A stretch of DNA of 39,528 nucleotides from Calidithermus chliarophilus DSM 9957 (GTDB taxonomy: Bacteria > Deinococcota > Deinococci > Deinococcales > Thermaceae): the NCBI RefSeq assembly GCF_000430045.1, contig NZ_KE387023.1:888838-928365 (forward strand), given 5' to 3'. The position numbers were made by a program, and so were the translations under genes. The notes beneath the pieces are model-generated. The model made no database searches. It saw only the letters and a list, made by a program, of their open reading frames with translations, and was not told the origin of the DNA. Shown here in pieces: positions 699 to 18,224 of this stretch. How positions within the stretch are numbered: the stretch's first letter is position 1; each line of letters begins with the position of its first letter.

Positions 699-2582
699 TC
701 AGTACTCCCTGAAGCTCATCTTCACCGGGACGATGGTCTGGAGGTCGAAGCTGCGCACGGTGGGGAAGTTGGGCGGCGCTAGCGTGCTGTTGGCGAAGCG
801 CAGGTCGTAGTCGTAGGTCTCGATGTAGCCGCTGCCCAAGCCTCCGGAGCCGTTGAGCGTGCCGCGCAACTGGTCGGACGACTGGATCACCCCGCCGTAG
901 ACGTGCATCTTGCCCTGTTTTCCCCGGCCGCCGTAGTTCTCCACGGCCAGGCCTTTGCCGCTCGCCCCGGCCAGGAAGGAGCCCCACAGGTAGATGTTGT
1001 CGGGGGCTTTCACGGGGCTGTCCTCGATGACGATGTGGTCGCGCTGGGAGAACACACCCAACACCGTAGGCACCAGGCCATCGGTCGTGACGCAGCGGGG
1101 ACGGCTGCTGGTGTAGCCGCCGTCGGCCACTTTGGTGGGGTCGCACTCGTAGATCAGGTCGCTGGTCACGCCGATCTTGTTCACCGCGGTGATGTTGAGC
1201 TGGGTCTCTTTGGAGAGGGCGGGCCGGATCTGGTCGGGCGGCGGGTGGTCGGGGCAGAGGTCGGAGTTGCCGGGGTAATCGACGCCGCAAGCCAGCGAGC
1301 CGCTGCGGCCGGGGCCGCGCAGGTCGTCGATGCGGCCGGTGACGTAGATCTGGCCCGTCGGCCCGCCGCTGCCGAGGGGGGCGTGGCCGTTGGGGACGCC
1401 CGAGAAGACCTGCAGCGGCCCCCCGTTGAGCCTGACGGAGGTGGTGTTGGCGGCGTAGTCGGCGGTGATCACCCAGGTGTTGCTGCCCTGCCTCAGGGTG
1501 TAGACCTGCTTGCCGTCGCCGCTGGCCTCGAGCTTGAGCTGGTCGAGGTTGCCCTGCACGTAGATCCCGCCCTGCACGCTCGACCCGTCGTTGACCAGGT
1601 AGACCCCGTCGGGGATCGAGGGGCTGCTGTTGCAGCGCCGGGTGGGCGGGTTGTGCAGGCCCAGCCGGAAGCAGATCTCGGAGTTGCTCGGGGTCGAGGT
1701 GTCGAGGGGGTCCATGCCCAGGGCGGCACGCTGTTGGGAGAGCGTGGAGTTGGGCAGGTCCACTTCGGGGGCGCTACGGATGAAGCCCTTCTCGAACCTG
1801 GGCACCGTGCAGGGCGGGCGGGAGTCGCCCCTCACCCAGACCCTGCTCGCGCCCCCGCACCTGCCGTTGGCGTTGTAGTAGTAAGCGCCGTCGTCGCTGG
1901 TGCTGATGACGTCCCGGAAGACGGGGGTCCCCCAGAAGCCCCACGCGTGGTTGGCGTGGACCGGCCCGTTGAACACGGTGCCCGTGGGGAAGAACCCCGC
2001 GTCGCCCTCGGCGTCGTCGACGAGGAAGAGCCACTGCGAGAGCGAGGGCCTGCCCAGTTGGATCTGGAAGATCCCCTTGTCCTGCACGCGCCGTATCCCA
2101 CCGCCGGCCCTCCCGGTCGAGGTGATGACGTAGTCGGCGACGTAGGTCTGGGCGGGTGCCTGGCCGGCGGTGGCGTAGGCCAGCCCGCGCAGGTTGCTCA
2201 CGCTGTACTGGACGGTGGCCGAGCCGATGCCGCCGAGCGAAGCCCCGGCGACGCTGCCGAAGTTGGTGTTGAGGGTGTTCTGGATCGTGGTCGCCAGGCT
2301 GCTCCACTGGCTTTGGGGGATCACCCACTCGGAGTAGGGGTCGGCGGTGGCCGACATGAGCGGGAGGATGGCGTTGCGGATGTCGGAGCGGGCGGGGCCG
2401 GCCAGGGCGTAGCGGGCATAAGTCTCCCCGGCCTCGGCCACGGCGCGGGCCTGGGCGAGCTGGACGCTCGAGCGGCTCTGCTGGAGGTCGCCCATCGAGC
2501 CCACGAAGAGAATGGTGATCACCGAGACCAGGACGGTCAGCAAGACCAGGGCGGTGATGAGGGCAAGGCCGTGATTTCGCAT
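699..2582 (-). CDS. comZ: ComZ-like large PilX-type pilus-tip protein
   Basis: This 627-residue protein has a type IV prepilin-like N-terminus: MRNHG followed by a long hydrophobic helix beginning LALITALVLLTVLVSV (residues 6-26). It lacks the usual Glu5 of major pilins, as in PilX/ComZ proteins. The rest is a large extracellular region rich in Gly, Asn and Ser with Cys pairs and repeated short strands, consistent with a beta-solenoid body. In Thermus, ComZ is encoded after three minor pilins and is needed for natural transformation; the same order is seen here, and that synteny is the basis for the symbol. The upstream pilin gene ends in AGG-AGG-TAG, so its last codons form this gene's Shine-Dalgarno; one base separates the stop from this ATG, implying translational coupling. 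The product should pass the inner membrane and sit at or near the pilus tip. Confidence 0.72.
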   Translation of the reverse strand: MRNHGLALITALVLLTVLVSVITILFVGSMGDLQQSRSSVQLAQARAVAEAGETYARYALAGPARSDIRNAILPLMSATADPYSEWVIPQSQWSSLATTIQNTLNTNFGSVAGASLGGIGSATVQYSVSNLRGLAYATAGQAPAQTYVADYVITSTGRAGGGIRRVQDKGIFQIQLGRPSLSQWLFLVDDAEGDAGFFPTGTVFNGPVHANHAWGFWGTPVFRDVISTSDDGAYYYNANGRCGGASRVWVRGDSRPPCTVPRFEKGFIRSAPEVDLPNSTLSQQRAALGMDPLDTSTPSNSEICFRLGLHNPPTRRCNSSPSIPDGVYLVNDGSSVQGGIYVQGNLDQLKLEASGDGKQVYTLRQGSNTWVITADYAANTTSVRLNGGPLQVFSGVPNGHAPLGSGGPTGQIYVTGRIDDLRGPGRSGSLACGVDYPGNSDLCPDHPPPDQIRPALSKETQLNITAVNKIGVTSDLIYECDPTKVADGGYTSSRPRCVTTDGLVPTVLGVFSQRDHIVIEDSPVKAPDNIYLWGSFLAGASGKGLAVENYGGRGKQGKMHVYGGVIQSSDQLRGTLNGSGGLGSGYIETYDYDLRFANSTLAPPNFPTVRSFDLQTIVPVKMSFREY

Positions 2583-2583
2583 G

Positions 2584-3519
2584 CTACCTCCTGAGGTCGA
2601 CGGTCTGCGACAGGGTGAGGGTGTCCCGCGCGCCGTTGGGCAAGAGCTCGGCGCTCTGGCCCGTCAGGGCCACGCGGATCGCGCGGATCTCGTTCCCGAC
2701 GTACCGGCTGCCGGAAACGTTGGGGTAGGCGCTGTAGGCGCTGCCCAGGGCGCTCGCGGCGGCGTCCAGGGTCTCGTAGAACACGAGCTGGGAGGAGGGG
2801 TCGGAGGGGTTGAGCGGGACGCCGTACCAGACCTGGATCCTGGAGATGCCGAACGCCACCACGCCGGTCTGCGCCCCGGGGGTGCCCAGGCCGGTCCTGC
2901 GGAAGAGGACGGTCTGGCTGGGGTCGAGCGGGTCGGTCTGCAGGAGGTACGTGGCAATCTGGGCCTTGAAGATGTAGGCCGCCGGGCTCCACAGTCCGGA
3001 GATCTTGGTGGTGTTGTGCTGCAACTTCTCGGGCGGGCTCGAGTTGCAGCCGGGGGTGCGGTGGTGCACCTGGGTGATCTGCAACAGTTGGTAATCGCTG
3101 CCGTTGAGCAGGATGGCCGTGTCCCCGTCCTGGAAATCGCTCGCGTCGCAGACCCGGGTCTCCGCCGAGTTCGTGAAGCTGTTGCCGGGCGGCTCGGCGA
3201 CGCGGGTGCTGGTCCCGTCGAGGGTGACGATGCTGACCCGGCTGTGGTTGCTGCAGGCGGCGCTGGCGCCGCAACTGCTCTGGTTCCAGACGTGCAGGCC
3301 CGCCGCCGAGCGCAGGTCCTGGGCGATGAGCGTCAGGGCGGCCCGCAGGTTCTGCTGGGTGCTCAAGCGGGTGTCCTCGCGCCGCTTGTGCTGCAAGGAC
3401 GAGGAGATCGCCTGGGTAGCCAGCGCCATGAGGATCCCGACGATGGCCAAGGCCACCAGGATCTCGACCAGGGTGAACCCTGCGCGGCGCTTATTGGTCG
3501 ACGAAAGTGCTGAGCGCAA
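2584..3519 (-). CDS. Minor prepilin, PilW/PilA3-like
   Basis: This 311-residue prepilin has a class III leader MRSALSSTNKRRAG, cleaved before FTLVEILVALAIVGILMA, with Phe1 and Glu5 of the mature protein present for PilD peptidase/methylase and subunit docking. The C-terminal domain is long for a minor pilin and contains several Cys (for example NQSSCGASAACSN), so disulfides are likely. Size and position (third of four genes) match PilA3 of Thermus and PilW of proteobacteria. The start overlaps the end of the preceding pilin gene by 29 bp, and the 3' end carries the Shine-Dalgarno of the ComZ-like gene, so the four genes form one operon. Role: part of the minor-pilin priming complex for pili and DNA uptake. 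Family is clear; the individual name rests on synteny. Confidence 0.85.
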   Translation of the reverse strand: MRSALSSTNKRRAGFTLVEILVALAIVGILMALATQAISSSLQHKRREDTRLSTQQNLRAALTLIAQDLRSAAGLHVWNQSSCGASAACSNHSRVSIVTLDGTSTRVAEPPGNSFTNSAETRVCDASDFQDGDTAILLNGSDYQLLQITQVHHRTPGCNSSPPEKLQHNTTKISGLWSPAAYIFKAQIATYLLQTDPLDPSQTVLFRRTGLGTPGAQTGVVAFGISRIQVWYGVPLNPSDPSSQLVFYETLDAAASALGSAYSAYPNVSGSRYVGNEIRAIRVALTGQSAELLPNGARDTLTLSQTVDLRR

Positions 3520-16627: not shown

Positions 16628-16732
16628 CCAAAAGCTTTCCGGAGCCGGTCACCACAAGATCAAAAACCAGTAAAACCCAAGCGAATTTGAAAAACCCAAG
16701 CGACTGTCGTACCTTGTAGGAAGGAGACTGAT

Positions 16733-16765
16733 ATGCTCTTGGGCAAATGCCGAGCTGTAGGATAG
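16733..16765 (+). CDS. Possible 10-codon leader ORF overlapping the DUF4160 start
   Basis: AAGGAG (16721-16726) sits 6 nt before ATG 16733, opening MLLGKCRAVG then TAG. This is the best Shine-Dalgarno/start pair here, but it is out of frame with DUF4160, whose ATG (16747) lies inside it. Translation of the leader would end 16 nt past the DUF4160 start and could reload ribosomes, limiting or coupling expression. It may be fortuitous. Confidence 0.3.
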   Translation: MLLGKCRAVG

Positions 16766-16995
16766 ATGGATTCCGGATAGTTATATATCCCAACGATCAT
16801 CGCCCTCCCCACGTTCATGTCATGACCACCGATGGTGAAGTCCTTATCCTTCTTGGCCTCGACGGAGAGGCTGTAGAGATTCGCGAGATTCGCGGGGGTG
16901 TCAAAAACGGCGATGTAGTGAGAGCTGTAGAGATAGTGAGTCGAGACAACGACTCCCTGTTGGAATGGTGGCGAGAGATCCATGGTGACTGCTGA
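16747..16995 (+). CDS. DUF4160 protein, candidate toxin of a three-gene module
   Basis: This 82-residue protein opens MPSCRIDGFRIVIYPNDHRP followed by PHVHV, the DUF4160 signature (SNDHxPPHxHV); it then has two further strands and ends WWREIHGDC. DUF4160 genes are regularly found next to DUF2442 genes, and the pair is usually regarded as toxin-antitoxin-like; the biochemical activity is not established to my knowledge. The conserved DHRPPHVHV His/Asp cluster is the obvious candidate active or metal site. The gene overlaps the DUF2442 gene by 14 bp, so the two are co-translated. Local DNA is visibly AT-richer than the flanking helicase gene, as expected for a mobile module. The start is the family-conserved MP; no proper Shine-Dalgarno is aligned with it. 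Confidence 0.8.
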   Translation: MPSCRIDGFRIVIYPNDHRPPHVHVMTTDGEVLILLGLDGEAVEIREIRGGVKNGDVVRAVEIVSRDNDSLLEWWREIHGDC

Positions 16996-17731
16996 TCTTC
17001 TTCAACAAATTGAGGCTGCTCGGAAGGCGGGTGAGTTGGCGGAGCGGTCTGAGCCCGTGGCTCGCCACGCCCGCTACAACCCACTGTCCCGGGAACTCGA
17101 GGTCGAACTTAGAGATGGCCGCCGCGTATCGGTCAGCGTTGACCTGATCGAGGGTTTACAGGGGGCTAGTGACGAGGCGTTGAGCCAGGTCGAGGTGACC
17201 CCGGCTGGGACCGGTCTCCACTGGGAAGCGCTGGATGCCGACGTGAGCGTGCCTTTCCTCGTAAGGGGTGTTTATGGGACGCGGGCCTGGATGGCCCAGT
17301 TAGGACAGCGAGGGGGTAGGGTCAGCAGCCCGGCCAAGGCTGCAGCAGCTCGTAAGAATGGGAAGAAAGGGGGGCGACCTCGAAAGTCTCCGGTCTCACA
17401 ACCGGAGGAAGCCCCCATTGCATCCACAGACTGTACGGTTCGGCTGCACTTGCCGCGCATGCTGTATCAGCAACTGCAGAAGGGCGCCCGGGAGGAGGGA
17501 GTGGCTCTCGAGGCCTACCTTCTAACCCTCGTGGCTCAGGGCGCGTCGCACCACCGGCTGCACCTTGAACTGCAGAACGTTTGTCAACGGCTGGACCGCA
17601 TAGAGCACCGGCTGCTCGCGTGGGGCTGGCAAATCGAAACTCAAATCCGCGCGAACGCCTTCGAGCATCTGCGTGGACCCCACGTTCTGGCTTCAGTGCG
17701 GGAGGATTTCCAACGCTTCCTGGGGGCTTAG
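16982..17731 (+). CDS. DUF2442 protein with basic linker and ribbon-helix-helix-like extension, candidate antitoxin
   Basis: This 249-residue protein is far longer than a bare DUF2442 protein (about 80-100). Residues about 25-95 form DUF2442 (ARYNPLSRELEVELRDGRRV, VDLIEGLQGAS, GTGLHWEALDADVSVP). Residues about 118-135 are a basic tract with KNGKKGGRPRK resembling an AT-hook. Residues about 150-185 (TVRLHLPRMLYQQLQKGARE, EGVALEAYLLTLV) look like a ribbon-helix-helix, so autoregulation is plausible. A helical tail of about 60 residues (LDRIEHRLLAWGWQIETQIR, then EDFQRFLGA) could be a chaperone-addiction segment for the SecB-like protein encoded next. Overlaps DUF4160 by 14 bp; the next gene starts 1 bp after its stop. 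The antitoxin role is inferred. Confidence 0.72.
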   Translation: MVTADLLQQIEAARKAGELAERSEPVARHARYNPLSRELEVELRDGRRVSVSVDLIEGLQGASDEALSQVEVTPAGTGLHWEALDADVSVPFLVRGVYGTRAWMAQLGQRGGRVSSPAKAAAARKNGKKGGRPRKSPVSQPEEAPIASTDCTVRLHLPRMLYQQLQKGAREEGVALEAYLLTLVAQGASHHRLHLELQNVCQRLDRIEHRLLAWGWQIETQIRANAFEHLRGPHVLASVREDFQRFLGA

Positions 17732-17732
17732 C

Positions 17733-18224
17733 TTGAGCAAGAGATCTGCCAACACCCCGTCCGCTTTGAGCCCCGCCGAGTACGGGCAGTTCATCGAAGG
17801 GCTGGAGCTTCTCGAAGTTCGGCTGGTTCGCCTCAACGTCGAAGCCAGGAGCTTCCCGATCAAGCCTGCTGGTACCCGGCTCGAGGTCGCAGACGAGGCG
17901 AGCTACACACCCGTAGATGGCGGCTTTGAAGTTTTCCACCGCTACTTGCTGCTCGCGACCAACGCCCAGCCATCTTCCGAACCCGTCGGAAGAATTGAAG
18001 CGGAATTCGGGTTGCGCTTCACGAGCGTTCAACCGATCGGCCAGCCCTACTTCGAGATTTTCCGTGACGTCAACCTCCCGGTGAACACCTGGCCTTACTG
18101 GAGGGAGCTGGTCCAGGCGATGACGGCGCGGATGGGATGGCCGCCCGTCACACTGCCTTTGTTGAAGCGGGGAACCCAGCCTGCCGGTAGGTCTACCGTT
18201 CGCAAAGGGAGGAAGAGGAAGTAA
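17733..18224 (+). CDS. SecB-like chaperone of the DUF4160/DUF2442 module
   Basis: With the TTG start immediately after the previous stop, the product is about 163 residues, near SecB size (about 155-180). The C-terminal half has the SecB pattern: YFEIFRDVNLPVNTWPYWRE then LVQAMTARMGWPPVTLPLL, where SecB has YxREhhxxhTxRxxhPPhxLP. Earlier strands (ARSFPIKPAGTRLEVADEAS) fit the beta-sheet core. A basic tail (TVRKGRKRK) is unusual for SecB. A SecB-like protein beside a toxin-antitoxin pair is the hallmark of toxin-antitoxin-chaperone systems such as HigBA-Rv1957 of M. tuberculosis. An upstream in-frame ATG at 17673 would overlap the DUF2442 gene by 59 bp and adds no SecB-like sequence, so TTG is preferred. 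Confidence 0.72.
   Translation: MSKRSANTPSALSPAEYGQFIEGLELLEVRLVRLNVEARSFPIKPAGTRLEVADEASYTPVDGGFEVFHRYLLLATNAQPSSEPVGRIEAEFGLRFTSVQPIGQPYFEIFRDVNLPVNTWPYWRELVQAMTARMGWPPVTLPLLKRGTQPAGRSTVRKGRKRK

Follow-up and report, generated by a model that had tools for sequence, protein, structure and literature searches.

What does a gene for a SecB-like protein contribute when it directly follows a DUF4160/DUF2442 gene pair? Calidithermus chliarophilus DSM 9957 (genome of 4.69 Mb in 9 contigs) raises this question with a compact locus in a 39,528-nucleotide stretch of contig NZ_KE387023.1 (positions 888,838 to 928,365), hereafter the window. The locus contains three plus-strand genes, which encode a DUF4160 protein, an unusually long DUF2442 protein and a SecB-like protein, and for which a toxin-antitoxin-chaperone (TAC) function had been predicted from the letters alone. 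We consider it probable that the module is a natural graft, in which a chaperone-addiction unit of the HicAB type was joined to a toxin-antitoxin (TA) pair resembling DhiTA, and that it works as a TAC; confidence is high for its anatomy and moderate for its descent. As stated in the original prediction, the genes are tightly packed, with a 14-bp overlap of the first two (16982-16995) and a 1-bp gap (17732) between the DUF2442 and SecB-like genes, and the module is less rich in guanine and cytosine (59.1%) than the remaining window (69.5%).

The first two proteins belong to the predicted families, with the DUF4160 protein scoring 38 bits against Pfam PF13711 (cut-off 23) and the DUF2442 protein 52.1 bits against PF10387 (cut-off 23.9). 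The prediction had held that such pairs lack a firmly known toxin activity, a view overtaken by two published systems. DhiTA of Dickeya dadantii is a DUF4160/DUF2442 type II pair, of which overproduced DhiT inhibits growth of Dickeya and E. coli and toxin plus antitoxin does not, while the antitoxin and the complex reduce promoter activity (PMC8198452). A Thermus plasmid pair termed 'PEM', with proteins of 87 and 92 residues, stabilizes plasmids, and no T. thermophilus transformants were obtained from a plasmid without the second gene (PMC12724237). Both pairs share their two domain families and the leading position of the toxin gene with the window, where the DUF4160 gene comes first and the overlapping DUF2442 gene second. 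Unlike these two-gene systems, with an antitoxin of 92 residues in Thermus, the window encodes an antitoxin of 249 residues followed by a SecB-like gene. The DUF4160/DUF2442 pair is thus already published, and the new part is the HicB-type addition together with SecB.

By analogy, DUF4160 is the presumed toxin of the module. It misses the cut-off of the NCBIfam equivalog model for DhiT (NF048015, 24.8 of 100 bits) and is filed in the same Pfam family, not as DhiT itself. A structure model of the protein is confident (predicted local distance difference test, pLDDT, 92.3) and has no match in the PDB at E 0.001; the best VIA-align result (Z 5.3 over 77 residues) is too weak to use, and other folds are possible. 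Given the lack of a significant PDB fold match, the protein may act in an undescribed way.

The DUF2442 protein departs from its two-gene relatives in its C-terminal extension. The antitoxins of three plasmid pairs and of the viral-contig pair L165 end 3-8 residues past a GGRPR motif; the three plasmid pairs have the identical DUF4160-DUF2442 order, with genes overlapping by 11-14 nt and without an annotated SecB alongside. Beyond the equivalent GGRPRK, the window protein continues for 114 residues and its counterpart at locus L003, in another Thermaceae genus, for 123. Residues 153-216 scored 42.4 bits against a profile of HicB C-termini (best of 4000 shuffles, 10.0). Because this profile was partly built from HicBs found with the long DUF2442 protein as query, a second version was made from six HicBs that had been reached through SecB alone, against which both long proteins scored 29.0 bits, the best shuffle 7.9 and one CopG-like protein 1.5. 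Furthermore, hhalign aligned the extension with the HicB C-terminus over 52 columns (95%, E 3.6e-8), and pairwise BLASTP matched it to the HicB of L048 (E 3e-5) and not to that of L049. The window extension had no match in Pfam, the L003 extension matched only RHH_5 below its cut-off (16.6 of 26 bits), and the ribbon-helix-helix search of the PDB gave no significant hit (E 0.42 for the best, Arc repressor). Similarity to relatives and to HicB thereby confirms the AT-hook-like GGRPRK and the HicB-type ribbon-helix-helix that had been read into the protein. The prediction had also named a tail of about 60 residues as the addiction candidate; only about the last 33-60 residues form a candidate chaperone-binding (ChAD) tail, a role that we infer from the ChAD tails of HigA, HicB and MqsA (PMC5105189), and the 64 residues that precede the final 33 make up a DNA-binding region of HicB type with coil. 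The protein ends in LGA (VYA at L003). Of 22 other TAC antitoxins, 12 terminate in AA and another five in one A, the kind of ending to be expected from ClpXP-type degrons, and five otherwise; the antitoxins of L025, L028 and L030 were taken as whichever of two candidate frames abuts SecB.

Taken as a single sequence, the third protein misses the gathering cut-off of the Pfam SecB family (PF02556, 13.8 of 26 bits), scores 14.5 of 143 bits in NCBIfam, matches the PADLOC model PD-T4-9_C at E 0.006 and finds Rv1957 in the PDB at E 0.18. A profile of 13 relatives, in turn, had Rv1957 (5mtw) as its sole significant PDB entry (E 4.5e-7). An AlphaFold model of the protein (pLDDT 72.8, predicted template-modelling score 0.66) yielded 19 Foldseek matches at E <= 0.001, all of them SecB or SecB-like chains and the top four being Rv1957 bound to its ChAD peptide (E 1.6e-7). 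VIA-align placed Rv1957 (Z 12.1, 2.6 A, 128 residues) and E. coli SecB (11.6) in a tie. We assign the protein as SecB-like from the agreement of its family profile and its predicted fold with Rv1957, the single-sequence scores being too low for this purpose; the membership foreseen in the original prediction therefore stands for profile and fold and falls short for single-sequence cut-offs. The literature mentions 33 TAC chaperones as absent from PF02556 (PMC4257090). Canonical export SecB was rejected as a label on account of the missed cut-off and the TA neighbourhoods of SecB-like genes.

Two features of SecB-type TACs are present in the module: a SecB-like gene beside a TA pair and an antitoxin extension lacking in two-gene relatives. 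In architecture it resembles the HicAB-SecB TACs (Mmet-TAC, PMC5105189, and the Thermaceae and Chloroflexota loci L018, L019, L021, L049 and L177), which share the succession of ribbon-helix-helix, coil and tail with a SecB-like gene directly after. Unlike these, the module has no HicA or HicB N-terminal domain by Pfam and encodes DUF4160 and DUF2442 instead. It also shares the SecB fold and an antitoxin C-terminal extension with HigBA-Rv1957 of M. tuberculosis (PMC6377645), from which it differs in toxin and antitoxin families, since no HigB or HigA of Pfam, NCBIfam or PADLOC matches its proteins. CmdTAC is likewise a three-gene TAC with a SecB-like protein; its toxin CmdT is an mRNA ADP-ribosyltransferase (PMC11618068). 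The module was rejected as a CmdTAC, as neither of its first two proteins hits a PADLOC model, even at E values up to 10. PD-T4-9, the system of the weakly matched PADLOC model, is what we take to be CmdTAC. CmdA joined the TAC antitoxin families after a count made in 2016. That count listed three natural families, HigA, HicB and MqsA, and the same paper describes other antitoxins made chaperone-dependent in the laboratory by a ChAD tail and its SecB (PMC5105189). Nothing joining DUF2442 with SecB was found in the open-access literature (subscription papers and preprints lay outside the search), and what that literature has on TACs with SecB and Thermus is without DUF4160 or DUF2442.

If extension and chaperone belong together, long DUF2442 proteins should be the ones with SecB-like neighbours, an association that had also been suggested for survey. 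Within the phylum, 25 of 111 genomes gave 35 rows with the DUF2442 profile; 30 of these rows had loci and were read (the five rows without a locus were left out). At 28 loci 0-45 residues follow the DUF2442 domain, and at two loci 152 and 161; a SecB-like gene lies beside both long loci and beside none of the 28 short ones (flanks up to 1.5 kb), with a firm count of 0 of 24 once L065, L069, L070 and L084, which have <700 bases downstream, are set aside. The association is thus present, and by their homology the two long loci represent one lineage and a single evolutionary event.

Beyond the phylum, the long DUF2442 profile matched 70 rows in 58 of 400 Chloroflexota genomes (at most six candidates scored per genome), none spanning DUF2442 plus ribbon-helix-helix. 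In five of these rows the match starts no earlier than profile position 128; four are HicBs by eye, each preceded by a HicA-like gene, and the fifth is a GKGGRPRK stretch in a different protein. SecB-like matches occur in five of the 400 genomes (at most nine candidates scored per genome), at two HicAB loci (L049, and L177 with chaperone match L181), one remnant (L182) and two loci with an adjoining helix-turn-helix, HigA-like antitoxin gene (L183, L184), and none of the five has DUF2442. Among plasmids, the DUF2442 protein has matches in 155 records (40 records listed), none over 80% of its length. In viral contigs, none of 44 loci has a SecB-like gene nearby, 43 of them deriving from short, mostly GKKGGRP-like matches that are perhaps not DUF2442, so that this negative carries little weight. 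A contig scan with the SecB alignment returned four loci, all HicAB by eye, from which records near the window's own genome were possibly left out. A 99.9 kb viral contig carries a three-gene HigBA-SecB-like set (L089, ~2095-3438).

SecB-like matches in the phylum comprise 25 rows in 22 of the 111 genomes. Neighbours were read for 23 rows (L027 and L031 left out), and 20 of these have a TA pair or remnant beside the SecB-like gene, namely 13 HigBA-type, five HicAB (among them L032 and the remnant L020) and two DUF4160/DUF2442 pairs; the other three show a HigA-like gene alone with a short SecB, a contig edge, and no TA. Most HicA, HicB, HigB and HigA labels were given by eye, with Pfam confirming HicB at L048 and L049 and a helix-turn-helix antitoxin at L023, and with the TA partners at L051, L052 and L055 named in their database records. 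The canonical SecB profile matches three of the 111 genomes, none in Thermaceae and none of 85 good genomes. In Thermales, SecB-like proteins linked to HigBA have an additional N-terminal stretch of ~45 residues that resembles a helix-turn-helix (L022, L023, L025, L026, L028-L030, L034-L036, L038, L039), found above cut-off by Pfam HTH_23 at L023 and by alignment or eye at the remaining loci; these chaperones may bind DNA themselves.

The descent of the window chaperone was approached with a tree of 28 rows, from which the partial L050 and the near-duplicates L047, L048, L027 and L031 had been omitted. In this tree, the chaperones of window and L003 join a Chloroflexota HicAB chaperone (support 89/87), and this trio next joins Thermaceae HicAB chaperones (75/76), with the HigBA chaperone group separate from the HicAB-grouped chaperones (84/97). 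With moderate confidence, the window chaperone thus groups with those of HicAB TACs, here L018, L019, L021 and L049 (L177 being outside the sample). The Thermaceae locus L032 (reverse strand, ~569-1905), a HicAB pair followed by a HigBA-type SecB with an N-terminal helix-turn-helix, is an apparent second sign of chaperones exchanging TAC partners. These distributions bear on an alternative in which the extension is only an extra DNA-binding and dimerizing module, the pair is self-sufficient and the SecB-like protein handles clients elsewhere, in export for example. Such a role would agree with the clear ribbon-helix-helix type of the extension, with its unconstrained tail, with canonical SecB having no match among the Thermaceae searched and with the reported ability of TAC chaperones to substitute for E. 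coli SecB (PMC5105189); yet SecB-like genes of the phylum lie mostly at TA loci, none was found at the short DUF2442 loci, and the window chaperone groups with HicAB-TAC chaperones, so that we regard this alternative as unlikely.

The copy at L003 repeats the three genes in unchanged order, with protein identities of 68, 65 and 78% and an overlap of the first two genes of 32 nt (14 nt in the window). It lies between tyrosine-recombinase-like and MazF-like genes (by eye), and in the alignment similarity begins about at a tandem repeat, the stretch before the module being without clear similarity. The dissimilar flanks suggest that the module was transferred as a unit. A DhiTA-like pair merely preceding a SecB-like gene by chance, an idea to which an arrangement known from two genomes only lends itself, is very improbable in view of the conserved order, overlap, TTG at the antitoxin end and 5' leader within the dissimilar flanks of the second genus. 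The tandem repeat upstream of the first gene is a candidate operator. In L003, the 12-nt sequence AAAACCCAAGCG occurs twice upstream with spacing identical to that of the window repeat, and in the 4.69 Mb genome of the window this 12-mer has exactly two copies, both in the window repeat (reversed-pattern control, 0). A promoter scan of the plus strand found no sigma-70-like site. Where the window has this tandem repeat, HicAB loci of the family have a TGATATTACAGGTAATATCA-like palindrome before hicA (by eye at L019, L021 and L012, and in altered form at L018 and L032).

Substitution rates between window and L003, as ratios of nonsynonymous to synonymous changes (dN/dS), are lowest for SecB and the DUF2442 domain (Table 1), followed by DUF4160 (0.47), the AT-hook and linker (0.57), the ribbon-helix-helix (0.76) and residues 191-249 (1.06). 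By this measure purifying selection acts on the chaperone and on the toxin-binding domain, and not visibly on the tail. The tail value and the occurrence of decayed SecB loci in the family would be consistent with a decaying TAC whose tail and chaperone no longer function. That explanation is nevertheless quite unlikely, with all three frames open in both genera, the tandem repeat conserved, and purifying selection on SecB and the DUF2442 domain. ChAD tails are reported to be variable (PMC5105189), which fits the fast-evolving tail here. At the decayed locus L020 (582-1487), a hicB C-terminus with an addiction-type tail continues in frame into the beginning of a phospholipase-D-like gene (by eye), with SecB intact and no hicA seen; L037, with a short SecB, was also counted among the decayed loci.

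For a natural graft that works as a TAC, DhiTA and the known TACs suggest the following course. The DUF2442 domain would bind and neutralize the DUF4160 toxin, and the AT-hook-like stretch and the ribbon-helix-helix would anchor the complex at the operator formed by the tandem 12-mer, repressing the operon. The C-terminal tail would leave the antitoxin unstable unless held by the SecB-like protein, and diversion of the chaperone would lead to loss of the antitoxin and release of the toxin. Competitors for the chaperone are described as the T4 capsid protein for CmdTAC (PMC11618068) and the lambda major tail protein for HigBAC (PMC11980606). The ancestor would have been a two-gene DhiTA-like pair that received a HicB C-terminus, an addiction tail and a SecB partner, in a direction that we infer. 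In a bolder form, chaperone addiction would be a portable natural cassette that moved whole onto an unrelated TA family, with DUF4160 acting in an undescribed manner and being released by proteins of hot-water phages acting on the chaperone; this we propose tentatively, as a possibility that is rather doubtful as a whole.

Several observations weigh against a grafted, functional TAC. The SecB-like protein on its own remains below the Pfam and NCBIfam SecB cut-offs. No constraint on the tail is detectable between the two genera, as reflected in its dN/dS and that of the ribbon-helix-helix, and no specific binding motif emerges from the comparison; the tail end differs from the LAA of CmdA, a ClpXP-type degron (PMC11618068). 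The tree gives moderate support, contains several long branches and places the HicA-linked row of D. radiodurans outside the HicAB chaperone group. The association between length and SecB amounts to one event, with only two members of one lineage. Finally, both single-gene plasmids of the Thermus pair were stable in E. coli (PMC12724237), and DUF4160 toxicity is therefore not general there.

The coordinates of the module are given in Table 1. Of the predicted span 16733-18224, the end is retained and the start is not: the DUF4160 gene opens at ATG 16747, and its relatives likewise begin with MP(T/S). ATG 16733 was rejected as its start, since it lies in another frame that stops after 10 codons. 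The best Shine-Dalgarno-like sequence (by eye; window positions 16719-16765) precedes ATG 16733, and the 10-codon frame ends inside DUF4160 and is not conserved in L003. The TTG start of the SecB-like gene (17733) has the same arrangement in L003. The surrounding larger open reading frames of the window, judged by eye, look chromosomal (pilin-like, UvrD-like helicase, sugar-nucleotide and sugar-transport genes) and do not resemble a defence island. No empty site was demonstrable; the same-genus relative of the downstream gene (L175) has different neighbours.

Table 1. Features of the DUF4160/DUF2442/SecB-like module, in window coordinates.
Feature	Position	Strand	Basis and remarks
Candidate operator, tandem direct repeat AAAACCCAAGCGA upstream of first gene	16672..16703	+	Two copies (16672-16684, 16691-16703) with starts 19 bp apart
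DUF4160 protein, 82 aa, presumed toxin, DhiT-like	16747..16995	+	Pfam PF13711, confident model
DUF2442 protein, 249 aa, presumed antitoxin	16982..17731	+	Pfam PF10387
DUF2442 domain, residues 1-109	16982..17308	+	Pfam 52.1 bits; PDB 3k8r E 1.4e-21; dN/dS 0.19 vs L003
Basic AT-hook-like stretch, residues 111-135, ends GGRPRK	17312..17386	+	Ordinary DUF2442 antitoxins stop here
HicB-type ribbon-helix-helix and coil, residues 153-216	17438..17629	+	hhalign, HicB profile
C-terminal tail, candidate ChAD region, residues 217-249	17630..17728	+	Absent from two-gene relatives; fast-evolving
SecB-like chaperone, 163 aa, TTG start	17733..18224	+	Profile, Foldseek, VIA-align; dN/dS 0.17

If the module is such a graft, it would add a further antitoxin family to the natural TACs and provide a natural case of the graft made in the laboratory, with donor type and acceptor type both recognizable. 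The locus also links DUF4160, a toxin family of which little is understood, with a chaperone that could serve as a sensor, in a family, the Thermaceae, for which genetic tools exist (Thermus thermophilus). It suggests that chaperone dependence can move between TA systems in nature.

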